Shown piece after piece: positions 8,247 to 22,618 of a stretch of DNA of 64,000 bases. The position numbers and the translations under genes were made by a program. Location: contig NZ_MCIB01000003.1 in NCBI RefSeq assembly GCF_003609645.1, forward strand, positions 1 to 64,000, given 5' to 3'. A model generated the notes under the pieces. It had not been told where the DNA came from. It saw only the letters and a program-made list of their open reading frames with translations, and searched no databases. The DNA is from Thermohalobacter berrensis (GTDB taxonomy: Bacteria; Bacillota; Clostridia; Tissierellales; Thermohalobacteraceae). Position 1 is the first letter of the stretch. Every line of letters begins with the position of its first letter.

Positions 8247-8346
8247 ACCTCCCGTTCCAGCTCCTAGCGGATACCAGACGTCCTTTAGGAAACTGTATTT
8301 AGTTTTATTTAACAGGTCTAGCTCTTAAGATGCTAGCCTATCCTAC
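8247..8346 (-). promoter_or_regulatory. Structured 5' leader of the ECF-coaX operon, candidate riboswitch
   Basis: Read on the minus strand from the predicted start site, GGATA (8339-8343) pairs with TATCC (8269-8273). Inside are three hairpins: GGCTAGC/GCTAGACC around 8311-8338, CTGT/ACAG around 8292-8314, and TCCTAAAGGA at 8281-8290. This gives a four-way junction. Downstream, TAGGA (8263-8267) could pair alternatively with TCCTA of the third hairpin, just before the GGGAGGT ribosome binding site. It shares the ATCCGCT ending with tetrahydrofolate riboswitches but not the rest of their core, so I assign no class. Confidence 0.55.
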
Positions 8347-11367: not shown

Positions 11368-12477
11368 CTATCCAAATATATTAAGTAATATTCCTGCAGC
11401 AACTGCTGAACCTATAACCCCTGCAACATTTGGTCCCATTGCATGCATTAATAAAAAGTTTGATGGGTTTGCTTTTTGCCCTTCCTTTTGTACTACCCTT
11501 GCTGCCATTGGCACTGCTGATACTCCTGCTGCTCCTATTAATGGATTTACTTTTCCCTTAGTTAGCTTATGCATTAGCCTTCCAAATAATAATCCTGTTG
11601 CTGTTCCTATTGAAAATGCTATTAATCCTAATACCACTATTTTTATTGTATCTACTGTTAAAAACACATCTGCCTTTGCCTTTGCTCCTACTGTTATACC
11701 AAGTAGTATTGTAACTATGTAAAGAAGTGAATTTTGGGCTGTTTCTGCCAACTTCGGAACTACTCCTGCCTCTCTTATTAAGTTTCCAAACATTAGCATT
11801 CCTATTAATGGTGCTGATGATGGTAATAATAGTATTGTAAATACTGTTACTACTATTGGGAATATTACCTTTTCCTTCTTTGATACTGGTCTTAATTGTT
11901 CCATCTTTATTTTTCTTTGCTCTTCTGTTGTTAATAGTTTCATTATTGGTGGTTGAATTATAGGTACTAATGCCATATATGAGTATGCTGCAACTGCTAT
12001 TGCTCCTAGTAGGTCTGGAGCTAGTTGCGATGTTAAGAATAGTGCTGTTGGTCCATCTGCACCTCCAATTATCCCTATTGACGCTGCCTCCGGCCCTGTG
12101 AATCCTAAAAGTATTGCTCCTATGAATGTAAAGAATATTCCAAACTGGGCTGCTGCACCTAATAGTAGACTCTTTGGATTTGCTATAAGCGGACCAAAGT
12201 CTGTTGCTGCTCCTACACATAAAAATATTAATGGTGGATATAGTCCATTTTCTGTTCCCCAATATATTATCCTTAAAAGTCCGCTCTCTTCCATAACACC
12301 AGAAAGGGGTAGATTAACTAATAGCATTCCGAAACCTATGGGTATTAAAAGATATGGCTCATATTCCTTTTTTATTGCTAGATAAAAGAGTCCACAAGCA
12401 ATTAAAATCATTATTGTCTCTTTTAAAGTTAATGCAGAGATTCCAGTACTTGTCCAAAACTCCTGCAGTATTTCCAT
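11368..12477 (-). CDS. mmdB: Na+-translocating methylmalonyl-CoA decarboxylase, beta subunit
   Basis: Integral membrane subunit that decarboxylates carboxybiotin and exports Na+. About nine or more hydrophobic segments are visible over 369 residues. Family signatures include [32 protein letters not shown] (with the Asp implicated in Na+ binding in this family), and NLIREAGV. The sequence alone fits oxaloacetate, glutaconyl-CoA or methylmalonyl-CoA decarboxylases; the adjacent mutase and epimerase genes favour methylmalonyl-CoA. Last gene of the operon, 27 bases after the carrier subunit. Codon-shifted antisense and alternate-frame ORFs over it are shadows. Confidence 0.93.
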
Positions 12478-12504
12478 TGAGGTTACCTCTCTTTCTAACT
12501 ATTT

Positions 12505-12933
12505 TTATTCAAGGGATACTAATGGGTCTTGAGCATTTACTGCCTGACCTTTTGTAACGTTTATTGATACTACCTTTCCATCCCTTGGTGCTACTATTTC
12601 ATTTTCCATCTTCATTGCCTCAAGTATCACTAAAACTTCTCCCTCTTTTACTCTATCATTTTCATTTACCTTTATATCTAATATTGTACCTGGCATTGGT
12701 GCTTTAATTGTTTCAGCACCTTGTGGTACAGATTTAGTTTCTGTTTTTTCTGGCTTTGATTCTTGCTTAGGTTCAGACGGTTTGGCTACTGTCTTTGGTT
12801 TTTCTACTTTAGGTTGTGGCATAACCTTTTTTGGTGAAGTTGTAGTAGCTTTACTAACCGTATTCTCTTTTCCTAATTCTTCTACTTCAACCTCGTAGGT
12901 CTTACCATTTACAGTTATACGATATTTTTTCAT
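12505..12933 (-). CDS. mmdC: Methylmalonyl-CoA decarboxylase, biotin carrier (gamma) subunit
   Basis: Biotinyl carrier that moves CO2 from the alpha to the beta subunit. An N-terminal segment (1-22) is followed by a Lys/Pro/Thr-rich flexible linker (about 25-70) and a biotinyl domain with EAMKMENE, the biotinylated residue being Lys108. Length 142. AAGGAGG ribosome site 8 bases before the ATG. BirA, encoded about 2 kb downstream, should biotinylate it. The linker resembles those of other Na+-pump carrier proteins. Confidence 0.93.
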   Translation of the reverse strand: MKKYRITVNGKTYEVEVEELGKENTVSKATTTSPKKVMPQPKVEKPKTVAKPSEPKQESKPEKTETKSVPQGAETIKAPMPGTILDIKVNENDRVKEGEVLVILEAMKMENEIVAPRDGKVVSINVTKGQAVNAQDPLVSLE

Positions 12934-12952
12934 TGATTAGTCCTCCTTAACC

Positions 12953-13333
12953 TTATAATTTGTTATAAATTTGCTCTTCTCTGCCTGCTTTAGCCCATAT
13001 AGATGTACTTTGAGGAACCCTTCTTATACTTCTAATTTTAATATCTTTTATTGACTTTGATAAATTAGCTGCTATTGCTGCTGCTATAACGGCAATTAAT
13101 TCTTCCTCATCTTCATCAGTCTTATCTTTTTCATTATCCATATTTTTAGTTACTTTTTTATTTTGACTATCCTTTTTAACTACAGTCTTATTGTCCCTTT
13201 TATAGAATACCTTTTCAAATCCACTTATTATGTATGATATTGCTAAAAGTGCTAGAAATACTATTCCCATACTCATTACAGTAATTATCAAAGCTTGAGA
13301 CATTGTTACCTTTTCTCCTAATCCTTCAAACAA
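12953..13333 (-). CDS. mmdD: Methylmalonyl-CoA decarboxylase, delta (OadG-type) subunit
   Basis: Small membrane anchor that assembles the pump. One N-terminal membrane helix (about residues 12-34, ALIITVMSMGIVFLALLAIS) is followed by a charged linker and a C-terminal helix ending in SIWAKAGREEQIYNKL, typical of OadG-family subunits. 126 residues. It starts with TTG behind GAGGTGA. It lies between the alpha and gamma genes, the usual order alpha-delta-gamma-beta. Confidence 0.88.
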   Translation of the reverse strand: MFEGLGEKVTMSQALIITVMSMGIVFLALLAISYIISGFEKVFYKRDNKTVVKKDSQNKKVTKNMDNEKDKTDEDEEELIAVIAAAIAANLSKSIKDIKIRSIRRVPQSTSIWAKAGREEQIYNKL

Positions 13334-13347
13334 TCAACTCACCTCTT

Positions 13348-14895
13348 TTATAGTGGCATATTTCCATGTTTCTTGGCTGGTCTATTTTCCCTCTTACTTG
13401 CTAACATATCAAAAGCATTTATAATTCTTGGTCTACTTTCCTTCGGTTCGATTATACTATCAACAAATCCTCTAGAAGCTGCAACATATGGATTTGCCAC
13501 TGTATCTCTATATTCTTTTATTTTTTCCGCCCTGGTAGTTATAGGATCTTCAGAATTCTTTATTTCTCTCTTAAATATTATATTTGCTGCACCTTCTGGC
13601 CCCATAACAGCTATTTCTGCATTTGGCCAAGCTAATACCATATCCGCTCCCATATCTTTACTACACATTGCTAAATATGAACCACCGTAAGCCTTTCTTG
13701 TTATTAATGTTACCTTTGGAACTGTAGCTTCACTGTAAGCATATAGCATTTTTGCACCATGTCTTATTATTCCACCATATTCTTGGTCTGTTCCCGGTAA
13801 GAATCCAGGTACATCTACTAAATTAAGAATAGGTATATTGTAAGCATCACATGTTCTTATAAATCTTGATGCCTTATCTGCAGCATCTATGTTAAGACAA
13901 CCTGCTAAAAATCTTGGTTGATTTGCAATTACACCTATTGACTTTCCATTTAACCTAATAAAACCAGTTATTATATTCTGTGCAAAATAAGGTTGAACTT
14001 CTAAAAACTCTCCGTTATCAGAAATTGATGTAATAATTTCTTTCATATCATAAGGTTTATTAGGATTTTCTGGGACAATTTCATTTAGTTTATCATCCAT
14101 TCTATTAATATCATCCCCTGTTTCAATTACAGGAGGTTCTTCTAAGTTGTTTGAAGGTAAAAAGCTTAAAAGTCTTCTTACCCTGTTTAAAGTTTCTTCT
14201 TCATTTTCATCTACAAAATGGGCTACTCCACTTACTCTGTTGTGTGTCATTGCTCCACCTAATTCTTCAGCTGATACATCTTCACCTGTTACAGTCTTTA
14301 TAACCTGTGGACCTGTAATAAACATTTTGCTAGTATTTTTAACCATAAATATAAAGTCCGTTAAGGCTGGTGAATAAACTGCTCCACCTGCACATGGTCC
14401 CATAATTACTGATATTTGTGGTATAACTCCTGAACCTATAGAATTTTTATAAAATATCCTTCCATATCCAGCAAGTGCATCAACACCCTCTTGAATTCTA
14501 GCTCCACCAGAATCATTAAGTCCAATTACAGGTGCTCCTGTTTTTAGTGCCATATCCATAATCTTACCTATTTTTGCTGCATGCATTTCACCTAGGGAAC
14601 CGCCCATTACAGTAAAATCTTGAGCAAATACATATACAAGTCTTCCATCTATAGTCCCGTATCCTGTAACAACACCTTCTCCAGGTATTTCTTTTTTATC
14701 AAGACCAAAATTTGTACATCTATGTTTAACAAATGCATCTATTTCAACAAAGCTTCCTTCATCTAAAAGCATATCTATTCTTTCTCTAGCAGTATATTTC
14801 CCTCTTTTATGTTGTTTTTCTATCTTTTCAGGCCCTCCACCGAGCTTTATTTTTTCTATAGATGCGCGCAATTGTTCAATTTTTTCATTGGCCAT
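13348..14895 (-). CDS. mmdA: Methylmalonyl-CoA decarboxylase, alpha (carboxyltransferase) subunit
   Basis: Transfers the carboxyl group of methylmalonyl-CoA to biotin, releasing propionyl-CoA. The two crotonase-like carboxyltransferase halves are evident: [13 protein letters not shown] and [16 protein letters not shown] in the first, [23 protein letters not shown] and [10 protein letters not shown] in the second. 515 residues, standard for the acyl-CoA carboxylase beta-chain family. Alone it could be a propionyl-CoA carboxylase subunit, but no biotin carboxylase is nearby and the Na+ pump subunits follow, so decarboxylation is the likely direction. ATG with GGGGAGG upstream. Confidence 0.94.
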
Positions 14896-14921
14896 TTAAA
14901 ACCCTCCCCAAACTTATTACA

Positions 14922-15323
14922 CTATTTCCTTTCACAAAGTTCTACTAAGACACCATGTGTACTTTTTGGATGTAAAAAGGCAATTTTAGCTCCTCCAGCT
15001 CCATATCTAGGCTTTTCATCTATCATTCTTATTCCCTTTTCCTTCATTTCTTCAATGGCTTTTTCTATATCATCAACTCTAAAGGCTATATGTTGTATAC
15101 CTTCTCCTCTTTTTTCTATGTATCTAGCTATAGGACCTTCCTTATCTGTTGATTCTAAAAGTTCTATTTCAGTATCTCCTATAGGAAGGAAAGCCACTTT
15201 AACCTTTTGATCCTCTACAACTTCCGTACCCTCAAGCTTCATTCCTAATACATCTTTATAAAACTTAAGGGTTTCATCTAAACTTTTAACTGCTACACCA
15301 ATATGATCTACCTTTTTTACCAT
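14922..15323 (-). CDS. mce: Methylmalonyl-CoA epimerase
   Basis: Interconverts the (R) and (S) isomers of methylmalonyl-CoA, connecting the mutase product with the decarboxylase. A VOC-fold protein of 133 residues, beginning [14 protein letters not shown] with the first metal-ligand His at about residue 7, then [13 protein letters not shown] and [14 protein letters not shown], which supply the remaining His and Glu ligands. GGAGGGG ribosome site before the ATG. Located between mutase/meaB and mmdA, 26 bases before the latter. Confidence 0.95.
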
Positions 15324-15356
15324 TATAAGCCCCTCCTTTAAAATTATGAATATTAT

Positions 15357-16304
15357 TTATTTCTTAACTAAATCAATAATTTTATCCCTAGCTGTATAAG
15401 GATCTAATCTTTTTTCTAGTACATCCTTATATAAACTATCAATTTCATTAGAGTCATTGCTTTTTTTAGCAATCATTGTCATTAGCTTCTCTTTTACTAA
15501 GTTTAATATTTCAAGTTTTATATTTTCCTCTCTTCTAATATGAAATTGACCTGTTTTCACCATATGATTTTTATGGTTTTTTATTTTTTCAATTATATTA
15601 TCAATACCTGTCTTTTCTGTTGCTGAAGCCTTTATAACCGGTGGCCTCCATCCATTGTGTTTTTTAAAGTCAAGCATCATTTCTATTTCAAGTGCTGTTC
15701 TATCAGCACCCTCAAGGTCACTTTTATTAACCACAAATATGTCACCTATTTCCATTACCCCGGCCTTTATTGCCTGTATATCGTCTCCTAAACCAGGTAC
15801 CATAACCATAACTACTGTATCAGCTGTTTTTACTATATCTACTTCAGATTGTCCTACACCTACTGTTTCAACAAAAATATAGTCCGCACCATATATGTCT
15901 AGTACTTTTATAGCACTTTGTGTACCTTTAGAAAGACCTCCTAGATGTCCCCTTGTACCCATACTTCTTATAAACACTCCAGGGTCTGTAGTTAAATCTG
16001 ACATCCGAACTCTATCTCCTAGTATTGAACCTCCAGTAAATGGACTTGTTGGGTCAACTGCTATTATACCTATCTTTTTCCCTTCTTTTCTTAGCATTTT
16101 TGCAAGCTTATCTGTTAATGTACTTTTTCCTCCACCAGGAGGACCAGTAATTCCAATTATGTGTGCATTACCTGTATGCTTATAAAGTTTTTTTAGTATA
16201 TCTACAGCTTCTTTATCTTCATTTTCAACCAAGGAGATAAGACGGGCACATGCCCTCTTATCTCCCTTTAGTAACCTTTCTGCCAATTCCAAATTAAGCA
16301 CCAC
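15357..16304 (-). CDS. meaB: Methylmalonyl-CoA mutase-associated GTPase MeaB
   Basis: G3E GTPase chaperone that protects and reloads the B12 cofactor of methylmalonyl-CoA mutase. Walker A GPPGGGKSTL, VDPTSPFTGGSILGDRVRM, the ETVGVGQSE switch region and NKSD base-recognition motif are all present; the C-terminal helical dimerisation arm follows. 315 residues. Start is uncertain: GTG at 16304 has AGGTG overlapping it, while the TTG at 16292 is 8 bases from AGGTGG and gives a family-like N-terminus. It directly follows the mutase small subunit gene. Confidence 0.95.
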   Translation of the reverse strand: MVLNLELAERLLKGDKRACARLISLVENEDKEAVDILKKLYKHTGNAHIIGITGPPGGGKSTLTDKLAKMLRKEGKKIGIIAVDPTSPFTGGSILGDRVRMSDLTTDPGVFIRSMGTRGHLGGLSKGTQSAIKVLDIYGADYIFVETVGVGQSEVDIVKTADTVVMVMVPGLGDDIQAIKAGVMEIGDIFVVNKSDLEGADRTALEIEMMLDFKKHNGWRPPVIKASATEKTGIDNIIEKIKNHKNHMVKTGQFHIRREENIKLEILNLVKEKLMTMIAKKSNDSNEIDSLYKDVLEKRLDPYTARDKIIDLVKK

Positions 16305-16310
16305 CTAATT

Positions 16311-16715
16311 TTAAGAGGATTTTTTCACGCTATTCTCTATATACTCTATAACCTCAGTTGTAGAAGTTCCAGGAGTGAATATTTCTGCTATTCCTGCTTC
16401 CTTTAGACCTGGAATATCATCTTCTGGTATAACACCTCCGCCTATGATCAAGATATCATCTGCATTTTGGTCCTTTAATAGCTTTACTACTTTTGGAAAT
16501 AGATGATTATGTGCACCTGATAATATACTCATGGCTACAACATCAACATCCTCTTGGATTGCTGCGGCTGCTATTTGCTCTGGTGTTTGTCTTAATCCAG
16601 TATATATAACTTCCATACCAGCATCCCTTAAAGCTCTAGCTATAACTTTAGCCCCTCTATCATGTCCATCAAGGCCAGGCTTAGCAACTAATACCCTAAT
16701 TGGTTTTTCACTCAT
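16311..16715 (-). CDS. Methylmalonyl-CoA mutase, B12-binding small subunit
   Basis: Stand-alone cobalamin-binding domain (134 residues) of a two-subunit methylmalonyl-CoA mutase. The B12 motif DGHDRG (with the axial His) lies near residue 17, followed by the S-x-L segment [15 protein letters not shown] and the glycine loop [20 protein letters not shown] precedes the ATG. It follows the catalytic subunit by 34 bases. This split form is common in clostridia and archaea. Confidence 0.95.
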
Positions 16716-16749
16716 TATTTAACCTCCTCTTAATCAGTTAGTTATACAA

Positions 16750-18429
16750 TTAAAGAATAATTGACTGTTGATATTCACCGAATTCTTCTCTTAATACTCC
16801 GCAGATTTCCCCTAAAGTAGCATAGGCTTTAACTGCATCTAGAATATATGGCATTGTATTTTCACTACCTTGTGCAGCTGTCCTTAAAGCTTCTAATGAA
16901 GCCTTTACTTTTTCATTATCCCTTTCTTCTTTTAAGTTTTCTAATTTCTCTCTTTGAAGTCTCTCTACCTCAGGGTCTACCTTTAATATATCTTTTGGTG
17001 GTTCTTCATCTATTTGATATTTATTAACCCCAACTACTATTCTCTTTCCACTTTCTACTTCTTTTTGATAGTCATAAGCACTTTCTTGTATCTCTTTTTG
17101 TACATACCCCTTCTCAATAGCCTTTGGTGAACCTCCAAGTTCATCAATTTTCTCTATATATTTAGCTGCCTCTTCTTCTATTTTATTTGTTAAGCTTTCC
17201 ACATAGTATGAGCCTGCAAGTGGATCTATAGTTTCAGTTACACCACTTTCGTGTGCTACTATCTGTTGTGTTCTTAATGCAATTCTAACAGACTCCTCTG
17301 TAGGAAGAGCTAATGCTTCGTCTCTGGAATTTGTATGAAGTGATTGTGTCCCACCTAATACAGCAGCAAGGGTCTGTATAGTAACACGAATTATATTATT
17401 ATCAGGCTGTTGTGCAGTAAGTGTTGAACCTGCAGTTTGTGTATGGAACTTCATTCTCATTGATTTTGGATTCTTAGCCTTAAATCTTTCCTTCATAATC
17501 TTTGCCCATAATCTTCTTGCTGCTCTAAATTTTGCAACTTCTTCTAATAGGTCATTATGAGCATTAAAGAAGAATGATAATCTTGGAGCAAAGGAATCCA
17601 CATCTAATCCAGCATCTATAGCTGCCTGTACATAAGCTATCCCGTTAGCAAGTGTAAAGGCAACTTCTTGAACTGCACTAGAACCAGCCTCTCTTATGTG
17701 ATAACCACTTATACTAATAGTGTTCCATTTAGGTACATTTTTTGAGCAATACTCGAAAATATCAGTTATAAGTCTCATAGATGGTTGTGGTGGGAATATG
17801 TAAGTTCCCCTAGCAATATATTCCTTTAATATATCATTTTGAATAGTTCCCCTTAGCTTATCTTGAGATACGCCCTGTTTTTCGGCAACAGCAATATACA
17901 TTGCCAACAACACTGCAGCAGGTGCATTTATTGTCATTGAAGTACTAACCTTATCCAAAGGTATTCCGTCAAAAAGAATTTCCATATCTTTAAGTGAATC
18001 TATTGCAACTCCTACTTTCCCAACTTCTCCTTCAGCTAATGGATGGTTTGAATCATATCCAATTTGTGTTGGAAGGTCAAATGCAACACTTAGTCCTGTC
18101 TGTCCCTGTTCTAATAGATATTTATATCTCTTGTTAGATTCCTCAGCAGTTGCATATCCAGCATACTGCCTCATAGTCCAAAGTCTACCTCTGTACATAG
18201 TAGGTTGAACGCCTCTAGTATATGGATACTGCCCTGGAAATCCTAGCTCTTCATTATAATCAAAATCTTTAACGTCTTCTGGTGTGTATAGTCGTTTTAC
18301 TTCATCCCCTGATCCTGTTCTAAATTTTTCTTTTCTCTCTGGAAACCTTGAAATAGTCTTAGATAAAGTGGTTTCCTGCCATTCCTTTTTTGAGTTTCTT
18401 ATTTTTTCCAATTTTTCATCTTCAAACAT
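16750..18429 (-). CDS. Methylmalonyl-CoA mutase, catalytic large subunit
   Basis: TIM-barrel subunit that isomerises succinyl-CoA to (R)-methylmalonyl-CoA with adenosylcobalamin. Clear family segments: [20 protein letters not shown] with the following [27 protein letters not shown] and [15 protein letters not shown]. It lacks the fused B12 domain, which is encoded separately next door; length 559 matches split enzymes. ATG with AAGGGGGC upstream. A 234-base gap separates it from the CoA-transferase gene and contains an inverted repeat, so it may also have its own promoter. Confidence 0.96.
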
Positions 18430-18663: not shown

Positions 18664-20163
18664 TTATATTTTCATACTTCCTGTTTCTAAGTATCTTTTA
18701 TGCCAAGATAAAGCATCTTCTATTATATGAGGTGTATGTTTATATTTACTATTTTTTACAGCTTGATTATAATATTCTTTTAACATATCTTTATAATCAG
18801 GATGAGAACAATTCTCTATTATTTTCTCAGCCTTTTCCTTTGGACTTAGTCCTCTTAAGTCTGCTACACCTTGTTCAGTAACAATTACATGAACATCATG
18901 CTCTGTATGGTCAATATGTGAAACCATAGGTACAATAGATGATATGTCCCCATTTTTTGCTATAGACTGAGTTGTAAATATTGAAAGATAAGCATTTCTT
19001 GTAAAGTCCCCTGATCCTCCAATACCATTCATCATTCTACTTCCCATTATATTTGTTGAGTTTACATTCCCAAATATATCTACCTCTATAGCTGTATTCA
19101 TAGCTATAATTCCTAATCTTCTAATAACTTCTGGATTATTACTTATTTCTTGTGGCCTTAATATTATATTTCCTCTATAATCTTTAAATTTTTCATAAAA
19201 GTCCTCTAATCTTTCCGGTGATATTGTAAGGGATGTTCCTGATGCAAATTTTATTTTTCCTGCTTCTAAAAGATCAAACACTGAATCCTGCAATACTTCT
19301 GAATAAATTAATAAGTCTTCAAATTTACTATCTAATAAGCCCCCTAATACTGCATTTGCTACACTTCCTACTCCCGATTGAAGTGGAAGAAGTTTTTCAG
19401 GAAGTCTACCATGCTTTACCTCATTTTCAAGAAAGTCTATTAAATGTCCAGCCATTCTCTTAGCAATATCATCTATTGGACTTACTTTCCTAGTATTATC
19501 TTTAATATCTGTTATAACAATAGCAGCAATTTTATCCTTATCACATGGAATAAAAGTAGTTCCTATTCTATCTTCAACCTTCTCTATTGGAATAGGTTTT
19601 CTATATGGTGGATTTGCAGGACTATATAAATCATGTACTCCTTCGAGCTCTAGTGGTTGGCTAGTATTTATCTCTACAATTACCTTATCAGCCTTCTCAA
19701 CAAACACGTTGGAATTTCCTATAGAGGTTGATGGAACTATTCCACCCTCTTCTGTAATTGCTACTGCTTCAACTAAAGCTATATCTATTTTCCCGAAAAA
19801 ACCGTACTTTACCCATTGGGGAACATGACTTAAATGCATATCTGCATACTCAATATCTCCATTGTTTATTCCATCCCTACAGCTTTTATTAGTTTGATAT
19901 GGATATCTTCTTGTCATAACACCAGTTCTAGCCAGTTCACCATCTAATTCATCACCAACTGATGCTCCCGTTATTATGGATATTTCAACTTTTTCCCCTT
20001 TTTTAGCCCTTTCCGACAGTGCCTTAGGAACAGCTTTAGGATAACCAGCAGGTGTAAATCCGCTTGTTCCTACTATCATTCCGTCTTTAAAAATTTCAGC
20101 AGCTTCTTCGGCTGTCATAATTTTATCTTTTAATCTAGAACATCTTATCCTTTCATCTAGCAT
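18664..20163 (-). CDS. Acetyl-CoA hydrolase/transferase family, probable propionyl-CoA:succinate CoA-transferase
   Basis: Would move CoA from propionyl-CoA to succinate, closing the cycle that starts from succinate. Family features: GTSGFTPAGYPKAVPKALSE near the N-terminus, EVDIFGNVNST with the expected catalytic Glu, and GGSGDFTRNAYLS. I chose ATG at 20163 (about 499 residues), behind GGAGTGGGGG; an upstream start at 20208 would overlap the preceding gene. Substrate is inferred from the operon; acetate or butyrate CoA-transferases share this fold. Confidence 0.9.
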   Translation of the reverse strand: MLDERIRCSRLKDKIMTAEEAAEIFKDGMIVGTSGFTPAGYPKAVPKALSERAKKGEKVEISIITGASVGDELDGELARTGVMTRRYPYQTNKSCRDGINNGDIEYADMHLSHVPQWVKYGFFGKIDIALVEAVAITEEGGIVPSTSIGNSNVFVEKADKVIVEINTSQPLELEGVHDLYSPANPPYRKPIPIEKVEDRIGTTFIPCDKDKIAAIVITDIKDNTRKVSPIDDIAKRMAGHLIDFLENEVKHGRLPEKLLPLQSGVGSVANAVLGGLLDSKFEDLLIYSEVLQDSVFDLLEAGKIKFASGTSLTISPERLEDFYEKFKDYRGNIILRPQEISNNPEVIRRLGIIAMNTAIEVDIFGNVNSTNIMGSRMMNGIGGSGDFTRNAYLSIFTTQSIAKNGDISSIVPMVSHIDHTEHDVHVIVTEQGVADLRGLSPKEKAEKIIENCSHPDYKDMLKEYYNQAVKNSKYKHTPHIIEDALSWHKRYLETGSMKI

Positions 20164-20182
20164 ATATCCCCCACTCCTTTTT

Positions 20183-20515
20183 TTAATCATCACAATATCT
20201 ATTTTCAATTATTTGTATATATTTTTCATTACAAATCTTACATGCAGAAATTAAGGCCTTTTTTGCAGATCCAAAATACTGTCTTTTAAGTTTGTCTTCT
20301 ATTTTTTCAAAATTATTTAGACTTTCCCCAATTAAAAGCTCTCTTACAAAACTTTGGGCTACTCTAGTAACTAATGAACAATCTGCATCTAGTATTTTAC
20401 CTGTTTCTTTATCTACCAAAAGACCTATAGCTATAACGTCATAAAGCTTATTTGCTGTAATTCCCTGTGGTAATTTTGCATACCCACTTATAAACATCTT
20501 ATTTTCAGACAACAA
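20183..20515 (-). CDS. DUF3870 protein
   Basis: Small 110-residue protein of a conserved clostridial family of unknown function. Visible features: FISGYAKLPQGITANKLYDV, a beta-strand-rich centre VIAIGLLVDKETGKILDADC, and a C-terminal KKALISACKICNEKY with two Cys. No membrane segment. Starts with TTG behind GGAGGTGAT. It sits between the transporter and the CoA-transferase in a tightly packed operon, so a role in handling the same metabolites is possible, but this is only context. Confidence 0.8.
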   Translation of the reverse strand: MLSENKMFISGYAKLPQGITANKLYDVIAIGLLVDKETGKILDADCSLVTRVAQSFVRELLIGESLNNFEKIEDKLKRQYFGSAKKALISACKICNEKYIQIIENRYCDD

Positions 20516-20527
20516 ATCACCTCCAAT

Positions 20528-21898
20528 TTACATAGGTAATCTATGTAGAATTATGGTAAAAATAACCATGCCTAATAATGCAAATGGGTAGGTTGCTCCA
20601 TATCCAGCTGCAGGTTCATCACTGCCTACAGCTTCAATTGCAGCTCCAAGTCCTGGTGTAGAAGTCATACCACCACAAATAGCACCAGATAGCATTATCC
20701 AATTTATTCTAAATCCATATCTTCCTATAAAGAAACCTACTAGCATTGCAACTATACCAACAACTAATGACACAACAGCTAAATATAAACCTGCACCAGA
20801 TAAAGCATAAAATACTCTATATCCATATCTTAATCCCACTATTGCTAAAAAGAATGCTAATGCTAATTGTCTGATTATACCTAATACCTTACCATCCATT
20901 CTAAAATTAATAAAACCTATTTTCCCTATGTAACCAAGTAAAAGAGAACCTATTAATACTCCACCTGTTGAGCCTAAACTAAAATATCCTAATGGTCCTA
21001 AAAATATCTTTATTTTTCCTATAGTATAACCAAATAAACATGCAAAAGTAAAACCTATTAAATCAAATTTTACATTCTCAATTTCTCTACTGTTTGAATT
21101 TTCTCTAGCCTCCTTCATCTCTTTTCTATATATTTTCCTTTCTTCTTCAACATTAATTTTGAATATTTTGGGGAAAAAGTTTACAGCAAATATTACTATT
21201 AAAACTCCAAAGGGATATCCAATAGCATGTCCTACTCCAATTCCTGCCTCTGCATTTTTAATAAATTGCTGCTTCTGTGTTTCTGTCAACTTAGTATTAC
21301 TCATATCTTCTGAAGCTGTTAACGTATCTAAACTAATCATTATCTCTTCTTTTTCTTCTAAAGGCAAACTTTCAAACTTAGTAACCTTTTCTGTTGCATG
21401 CTTTCTGGCTGTTTCAATAGCTGCAGCTAACCCTGGTGAACTAGTTAAAGCCCCTGTATAGACACCTGATACTTCATATGGATTAGCCTCTTTACTTAGT
21501 AGTGTCATTCCATATGTTGACATAGCCCCCAGTAGTGTAACAATAAAGCCTAAAACTACAAATTTAGTTCCGTACTTTTTTAAAACTGCTCCCATATCTT
21601 TAGCAGCTAAAAGACCTACTGCTGCAACAAAGAGAATTAAGAAAAGATAGAAAAAGTCTTTAGGTATAACTTGAGATGCCAGCATCTTTTGAGCAGCATC
21701 ATACCCAGGTTGGCCTTCTTTTATTCCAATTCCTAGTTTATAAATCCCCCAGCCAATTATTAAACCTGTAAATAGTGTGCCTGATACTCCAAAGTTGAAT
21801 TTACCAAACTTAATCCTACCAAATAACATACCTGTAGCTACTGCAATAAACATCAATACAAATGGATTTGTAATCCATGTAATTAAATTAAAACTCAC
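20528..21898 (-). CDS. AspT/YidE-type membrane transporter, possible dicarboxylate exchanger
   Basis: Integral membrane protein of about 12 segments with the internal duplication of the aspartate:alanine-exchanger superfamily. The repeat signatures are GALTSSPGLAAAIETA in the first half and GGMTSTPGLGAAIEAVG in the second, separated by a hydrophilic loop of about 80 residues. I chose GTG at 21898, 7 bases behind GGGGGAG; an ATG at 21919 would include that site. As first gene of the operon for succinate fermentation it may import succinate or export a product, which is inference. A terminator-bearing leader precedes it. Confidence 0.82.
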   Translation of the reverse strand: MSFNLITWITNPFVLMFIAVATGMLFGRIKFGKFNFGVSGTLFTGLIIGWGIYKLGIGIKEGQPGYDAAQKMLASQVIPKDFFYLFLILFVAAVGLLAAKDMGAVLKKYGTKFVVLGFIVTLLGAMSTYGMTLLSKEANPYEVSGVYTGALTSSPGLAAAIETARKHATEKVTKFESLPLEEKEEIMISLDTLTASEDMSNTKLTETQKQQFIKNAEAGIGVGHAIGYPFGVLIVIFAVNFFPKIFKINVEEERKIYRKEMKEARENSNSREIENVKFDLIGFTFACLFGYTIGKIKIFLGPLGYFSLGSTGGVLIGSLLLGYIGKIGFINFRMDGKVLGIIRQLALAFFLAIVGLRYGYRVFYALSGAGLYLAVVSLVVGIVAMLVGFFIGRYGFRINWIMLSGAICGGMTSTPGLGAAIEAVGSDEPAAGYGATYPFALLGMVIFTIILHRLPM

Positions 21899-21962: not shown

Positions 21963-22066
21963 TAAAAAAATAAAAGCACGGTAAATTAGGACATAGTAGT
22001 CCTAATCATACCGTGCTGTAGCTACTTTAAGGTAAAAGGTTTTTTTACCCCCATAACTACATGGTA
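21963..22066 (-). promoter_or_regulatory. Leader with pseudoknot-like element and intrinsic terminator, candidate riboswitch
   Basis: On the minus strand hairpin CCAT/ATGG (22061-22064 with 22051-22054) has a loop that can pair with TAGCTAC (22018-22024), forming a pseudoknot around a second hairpin GGTAAAA/TTTTACC. Directly after it comes a two-part stem (22009-22017 with 21975-21983, and 21999-22006 with 21985-21992), followed by an almost pure T run (21963-21974): an intrinsic terminator. Upstream bases around 22061-22068 can pair with the 5' arm of the terminator as an antiterminator. No known riboswitch class is recognised. Confidence 0.6.
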
Positions 22067-22099
22067 TTGTCAAAATAATCTGAATAATTTGTCATCTCT

Positions 22100-22128
22100 A
22101 TTATAATATATATGACTATATATATCAA
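22100..22128 (-). promoter_or_regulatory. Sigma-A promoter of the succinate-propionate operon
   Basis: TTGATA (22123-22128) and a perfect TATAAT (22100-22105) are 17 bases apart on the minus strand. The start site would lie about 30 bases before the structured leader element. Confidence 0.75.
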
Positions 22129-22228: not shown

Positions 22229-22618
22229 TTACTTATTCTCTATACTGTTTAAAAACTTATCAACATTTATTATGTATCTTTTATGTGTTCCTTCTCCTAT
22301 TTTTTCTTTTTCATCATAGGCTTCTACTTTAAAGTAAAGCTTCTTTCCTTCAATTTTAGTTAATTCTGCCTTTGCAGTTACCTTCATTCCAATTGGAGTT
22401 GCTGCAATATGCTTTACATCTAAATGGATTCCCACTGTTGCATGCTCTTTACCTAATTCTTTGTCAACTGCTTTAAGAGCAGCATTCTCCATTAACCCTA
22501 TCATCATTGGTGTTGCAAAAACTTTTATATCCCCACTTCCAAACTTAGCAGCTGTATCATTCTCTGTTACTACCTTTTCCACAGTAGCTTTTAAGCCTTC
22601 TTTAAGATTAAATTCCAT
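22229..22618 (-). CDS. FlK-like hotdog thioesterase
   Basis: A 129-residue hotdog-fold protein resembling fluoroacetyl-CoA thioesterase FlK and relatives: GLKATVEKVVTENDTA, FATPMMIGLMENAAL, then HLDVKHIAATPIGMKVTA. Presumably cleaves or binds a small acyl-CoA. I chose ATG at 22618, 6 bases behind AGGAGG, rather than an upstream in-frame start that adds 29 lysine/leucine-rich residues. It is upstream of the promoter of the acyl-CoA operon and transcribed in the same direction, so it could help recycle CoA, but it is a separate unit. Confidence 0.88.
   Translation of the reverse strand: MEFNLKEGLKATVEKVVTENDTAAKFGSGDIKVFATPMMIGLMENAALKAVDKELGKEHATVGIHLDVKHIAATPIGMKVTAKAELTKIEGKKLYFKVEAYDEKEKIGEGTHKRYIINVDKFLNSIENK

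Follow-up and report, generated by a model that had tools for sequence, protein, structure and literature searches.

A conserved leader RNA built as a transcription switch recurs before fermentation operons of Bacillota, mostly next to DUF3870 genes

A leader RNA at the head of a succinate-to-propionate operon

The window, by which we mean the whole stretch of 64,000 nt of Thermohalobacter berrensis DNA that was analysed, carries on its minus strand a succinate-to-propionate operon. The promoter and the genes around it are, in the direction of transcription:

22229..22618, minus strand: FlK-type acyl-CoA thioesterase gene, upstream and outside the controlled unit
22100..22128, minus strand: promoter of the sigma-A type, TTGATA-17-TATAAT, 11/12 consensus matches
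20528..21898, minus strand: AspT-like permease (PF06826), likely a dicarboxylate carrier; first controlled gene
20183..20515, minus strand: DUF3870 protein (PF12986), 110 aa, proposed RNA-binding antitermination regulator
18664..20208, minus strand: succinyl-CoA:acetate CoA-transferase (TIGR03458/ScpC)
11368..18429, minus strand: methylmalonyl-CoA mutase A/B, MeaB, epimerase and the Na+-pumping decarboxylase MmdA/D/C/B (MmdC inferred from position)

Between the promoter and aspT lies a leader with the following parts:

22063..22067, minus strand: P0 5' strand AUACC, the antiterminator strand, pairing with 22008-22012
22053..22060, minus strand: P1 5' strand GUAGUUAU
22031..22049, minus strand: P2 hairpin GGUAAAA-AAACC-UUUUACC, with a purine-rich arm and a pentaloop
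22018..22025, minus strand: P1 3' strand GUAGCUAC
22008..22012, minus strand: P0 3' strand GGUAU, shared with the terminator 5' arm, so that the two are mutually exclusive
21964..22016, minus strand: intrinsic terminator GCACGGUAUGAUUAGGAC-UACUAU-GUCCUAAUUUACCGUGC, followed by a U tract

The initial annotation had described a promoter, a strong terminator ahead of the first gene and a partial antiterminator pairing, and all three were recovered: the promoter (22128-22100), the terminator with its 18 nt arm and U tract (22016-21964), and the AUACC/GGUAU pairing, which conflicts with it. The fold of the leader has a z score of -7.5 relative to dinucleotide shuffles, none of 200 being equally stable. 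In a hand-checked alignment of five sequences, the order of elements is P0, a step of 2-3 nt, P1 (8 bp), a short step, P2 (7 bp, pentaloop), a 5 nt step and the 3' strand of P0.

Membership in an Rfam family was judged by a covariance-model score of at least the family's gathering threshold. No Rfam 15 family was found at the leader in the window scan, even at permissive thresholds, nor at 20 homologous loci. On the basis of Rfam 15 and the open-access literature, the RNA family is previously undescribed. Elsewhere in the window (8249-8339, minus strand), the scan reported the pan motif (RF01749, 41.2 bits), a known cis-regulatory RNA that typically precedes genes of pantothenate synthesis.

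Nested helices, not a pseudoknot

Among the few genomes available from the same family, no DNA similarity to the leader was found outside its own genome, and relatives were therefore reached via the AspT protein. This search gave 27 loci, whose upstream regions share the layout although sequence identity is low. Alignment with the leaders of other AspT-like operons, a check proposed in the initial annotation, revealed a shared P0-P1-P2 with covarying helices. Among five aligned leaders, 92.9% of the cells were paired and 17 were double-changed, versus 6.3 in shuffles. For 20 homologues the corresponding values were 93% and 80 (29 in shuffles), and pairing dropped to 39-47% in slid controls. 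P0, P1 and P2 all covary in this set. At the third pair of P0, for example, all 20 sequences fit: 9 have A-U and 11 have G-C. At L035 and in the second copy at L009, the GG of P0 is replaced by AG together with a compensating change in the opposite strand, which argues that P0 is kept for its pairing and not for its letters. In an 18-sequence, phylum-wide alignment across types, 94% of cells were paired and covariation scored 0.82, versus 0.34 in shuffles.

The initial annotation had proposed a pseudoknot riboswitch instead, in which a hairpin, CCAU-GUAGUU-AUGG, pairs through its loop with a downstream strand. Both the window and L014 could form this structure, but its strands are not conserved in related leaders: each pair of the CCAU/AUGG hairpin is lost in at least 4 and at most 12 of the 20 homologues, leaving 60% of cells paired. 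The same strands make the conserved P1, and the supposed contact between loop and downstream strand is really the outer half of this nested 8-bp helix, which is paired in 95.6% of cells across the 20 homologues. A further candidate pseudoknot, between the CC of the P2 loop and a downstream GG, was not supported, its pairing (68.3%) being no better than that of shuffles (67.6%). P0-P1-P2 are stacked, nested helices, and a pseudoknot riboswitch is very improbable.

Outside the helices, the internal loops and the pentaloop differ widely between homologues, with the exception of the last C of the loop. Highly conserved unpaired nucleotides of the kind that line a binding pocket were not found across homologues.

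P0 and the terminator are mutually exclusive

Folding calculations gave P0 a probability of about 0.99 in transcripts of nascent length, and of 0 once the terminator is complete. The terminator state is the more stable by 11.7 kcal/mol, and P1 and P2 can form in either state. Because P0 competes with the terminator 5' arm, it is the antiterminator; and since this weak helix loses by default, something must hold it for read-through to occur. The folding energies suggest that the bound state is the ON state.

The conflict was examined in 59 nonredundant elements near DUF3870 genes, by pairing the 9 bases 5' of P1 with the 14 bases 3' of P1, where the terminator starts. The mean score of P0 strands with their own terminator arm was 10.8, versus 7.9 (sd 0.35) when arms were swapped between loci. 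Own pairs were thus about 8 s.d. above swapped ones, and none of 5000 permutations reached the observed mean. The letters differ from locus to locus (UUACUG/CAGUAA, UGCUG/CAGCA, CAACUG/CAGUUG, AGGCC/GGCCU and AAGCCA/UGGCUU are examples). A pairing exclusive with the terminator, the mark of an antitermination switch, is therefore conserved across the whole family. That the leader is an RNA on/off transcription switch is well supported. The earlier proposal that a terminator/antiterminator leader controls the operon is likewise strongly supported, by covariation and by the recurrence of the element before functionally related genes.

One RNA architecture, many fermentation genes

A covariance model, R1, was built from the five hand-checked aligned leaders. 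It found further copies of the element, and several genomes have a second copy between the DUF3870 gene and the CoA transferase gene. In other Bacillota the element also precedes methylmalonyl-CoA mutase, a DASS-type anion transporter and an Mrp-type antiporter operon. The genes served across the phylum include those for succinate CoA transferase, the lysine-fermentation enzyme Kce (3-keto-5-aminohexanoate cleavage enzyme), the ornithine enzyme Ord (2,4-diaminopentanoate dehydrogenase) and L-Ala-D/L-Glu epimerase, as well as a sodium/solute symporter and an EamA transporter. The pathway changes from one locus to the next (succinate, lysine, ornithine, dipeptides), whereas the RNA architecture is constant: a P1 resembling UUUUAUCUGC/GCAGAUAAAA, a purine-rich P2 arm and a pentaloop often ending in CC. 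Weak matches of R1 or of the model R3 described below (G747, G496, G639, and several R1 matches with E >0.002) lay inside coding genes or had no terminator, and were discarded as chance.

Some loci deserve separate mention. At L061:4320-4381 (plus strand) the element stands before an Mrp-type Na+/H+ antiporter operon with MnhE and MbhD-like genes, which hints at a link to sodium there. In two genomes (L148:2956-3016 and L147:489-550) a variant DUF3870 of the AYSKLP type and its RNA precede an EamA transporter. Finally, in G321 a cobalamin riboswitch (RF00174; L100:1200-1374, plus strand) lies upstream of the DUF3870 gene, so that the operon of DUF3870, CoA transferase and mutase may be under B12 control in addition to the new antiterminator.

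This range of contexts bears on another view of the leader, namely an ordinary terminator that closes the transcript of the upstream thioesterase gene and regulates nothing. The element does sit downstream of the FlK thioesterase gene in the window. However, a separate promoter lies between the two, the element also occurs within operons and before genes that have no thioesterase upstream, its helices show covariation, and the P0 strand can pair with the terminator. Recurrence in other contexts refutes the idea that it merely ends the thioesterase transcript, and its probability is practically negligible.

A second, divergent type of leader, the Fusibacter-type variant, was recognised by eye. 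It has a different hairpin, resembling GUGACUUCCAUCAC, followed 3' by ACGGCAUAG, and stands upstream of aspT at L015 and L023-L027, of fumarase at L035:3141-3201 and of a dCache chemoreceptor gene at L144:2720-2779. It is possibly a sister class. One bearer, L027, belongs to a draft genome (G409) with no DUF3870 match, possibly because the draft is incomplete.

The element accompanies DUF3870

In the window, the DUF3870 gene (20183-20515) belongs to the leader's own operon. Where an operon lacked the RNA, the small DUF3870 gene was missing too. Among such operons, the succinate operons of C. difficile and others of the SucD/4-hydroxybutyrate type (L029-L032) have AspT and CoA transferase, with neither DUF3870 nor the RNA, and must therefore be regulated differently.

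Searched over 391 genomes, R1 gave confident matches in five, all with DUF3870, against a background of 24/391; the five include the window's own genome, and four had not been used to build the model. At many DUF3870 loci of the genomes searched, the RNA was directly 3' of the gene. Among 34 chosen genomes, the model R2 had strong matches in 15, all of them with DUF3870, and in none of the 9 without it; as this set includes training sequences, the result is supportive and not independent. R3, built from the 18-sequence cross-type alignment, gave nine matches at E<0.01 in 398 phylum genomes. Eight were in genomes with DUF3870 (55/398 overall), six of these having supplied training sequences while G713 and G458 had not, and the ninth lay inside a coding gene.

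A structural descriptor, indifferent to sequence, asked for a terminator that has on its 5' side a P1 of 7 bp or more closed around a P2 hairpin. It was applied to 115 DUF3870 loci taken from the chosen genomes and from samples of the class and the phylum, each region being compared with 300 dinucleotide shuffles. Of the nonredundant terminators at most 400 nt downstream of DUF3870, 36/94 had P1-P2 at p<=0.01, versus only 5/347 control terminators from the same loci (Fisher p ~4e-22). By this descriptor, the adjacent element was significant in 57 of the 115 loci. Its usual position is 3' of the gene, in the phylum-wide order DUF3870, RNA, controlled genes. Some copies are distant: one serves the Mrp operon of G025, another a CoA transferase gene of G458 on a different contig, and a third an AmiS/UreI-like transporter gene, at a distance of about 48 kb from DUF3870 on the same contig (L143:2111-2173, reverse complement; G394:C90:53828-53890, minus strand). 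These copies are consistent with DUF3870 acting in trans.

The protein has about 100 residues, and that of the window matches only PF12986 in Pfam; subfamilies differ in sequence. Conserved basic residues of the window's protein are K14, K86 and K98. Its AlphaFold model has a pLDDT of 88.7. A search of PDB structures with this model returned IscU, lipoate-ligase and xanthine-dehydrogenase-like domains, with a best Z of 8.5. These matches are non-diagnostic; among those listed no known RNA-binding protein stood out, and HutP was absent. Since Z values of 8.5 or less are too weak, no function was inferred from the fold. A sequence search of solved structures found nothing, and in the open-access literature DUF3870 was found mentioned only in an unrelated context.

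Discussion

We propose, with a probability of roughly 0.6, that the leader is a protein-dependent antiterminator and that DUF3870, responding to an effector, is the antitermination protein that binds this RNA. In nascent RNA, P2, P1 and P0 would fold as one long interrupted helix. When the terminator 3' arm emerges, it would displace the 3' strand of P0 and transcription would stop, the default being OFF. DUF3870 made from the same operon, once activated by an effector of the pathway (perhaps succinate, or else a CoA ester or acid related to it), would bind P0-P1-P2, keep P0 closed and block the terminator, allowing read-through into aspT and the DUF3870, CoA transferase, mutase and decarboxylase genes. 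Both activities of the protein, binding of the leader and sensing of an effector, are inferred from genomic sequences. As to the effector, succinate fits the operon, and Na+ or CoA esters are possible.

A different division of labour is that of a true metabolite riboswitch, in which P0-P1-P2, with two internal loops and the pentaloop, would bind a small molecule of the pathway, DUF3870 being an enzyme or binding protein of the regulon. Co-occurrence could then reflect membership of RNA and protein in one ligand-controlled regulon. The structure is covarying, conserved in length and placed before related metabolic genes, a weak P0 facing a terminator is the classic ON-switch layout, and a variant leader occurs in a genome with no DUF3870 match. 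Yet the unpaired positions vary widely, a single ligand is hard to name for succinate, lysine, ornithine and dipeptide genes together, and the element is mostly placed 3' of DUF3870 instead of controlling it. Of the riboswitch reading in the initial annotation, the terminator/antiterminator leader stands, while the variable single-stranded positions, the unrelated pathways and the tie to DUF3870 speak against the remainder, which we consider unlikely. With a constant RNA architecture before unrelated genes, the protein, which is the changing part, is the likelier sensor; a constant RNA with variable unpaired bases, next to divergent DUF3870 subfamilies, is what one would expect if the protein carried the ligand specificity.

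Another protein, not linked to the locus, might bind the antiterminator, with DUF3870 only modulating or accompanying it. Resemblance of the architecture to protein targets would suit such a factor, as would the absence of a recognised RNA-binding fold in DUF3870 and of DUF3870 itself in one variant-bearing genome. But if DUF3870 were not the partner, its adjacency to the RNA and their co-occurrence across the phylum would be difficult to account for, and an unlinked factor appears quite improbable.

Extending the proposal that DUF3870 is the antitermination protein to the whole family, it seems on balance likely that the DUF3870 proteins of Bacillota form a widespread system of effector-sensing antitermination proteins, undescribed in Rfam and the open-access literature, with paralogues for different fermentation substrates and one conserved P0-P1-P2 RNA. 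If so, a function would be assigned to a family present in 14% of the sampled phylum genomes (55/398), the way in which strict anaerobes turn on succinate, propionate, lysine and ornithine fermentation operons would be explained, and a new protein-RNA recognition pair would join the few antitermination systems.

Several known systems resemble this one in part. In ANTAR regulation (EutV, NasR, AmiR), a protein-bound RNA hairpin also prevents an overlapping terminator, but ANTAR proteins require dual hexaloop hairpins with a conserved G4 (PMC8934654), whereas the DUF3870-linked element has one pentaloop hairpin, nested in P1. Terminator-controlling riboswitches (fluoride, ZTP and Na+ classes) share the ON layout, with the aptamer 3' strand within the terminator 5' arm; the present leader differs in having neither an Rfam match nor a strongly conserved unpaired pocket. 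The RAT bound by LicT, SacY or GlcT of the BglG family is similarly a weak antiterminator hairpin with interruptions; it shares sequence with the terminator 5' arm, and a bound protein holds it in place. The RAT is about 30 nt long, as opposed to about 60 nt here; the genes served here are not PTS sugar genes, and no BglG-family protein was encoded among the genes examined.

In the hut operon of Bacillus subtilis, the small effector-binding protein HutP is encoded by the first gene, just ahead of the terminator under its control, and the catabolic genes follow that terminator. L-histidine and Mg2+ activate HutP, which binds clusters of NAG triplets (PMC7430163), in contrast to the P0-P1-P2 helix linked to DUF3870. 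The DUF3870 of the window lies outside the HutP sequence family, its only Pfam match being PF12986. What is common to both is the order of regulator gene, terminator-bearing RNA and controlled genes, which at DUF3870 loci recalls hutP-hutH.
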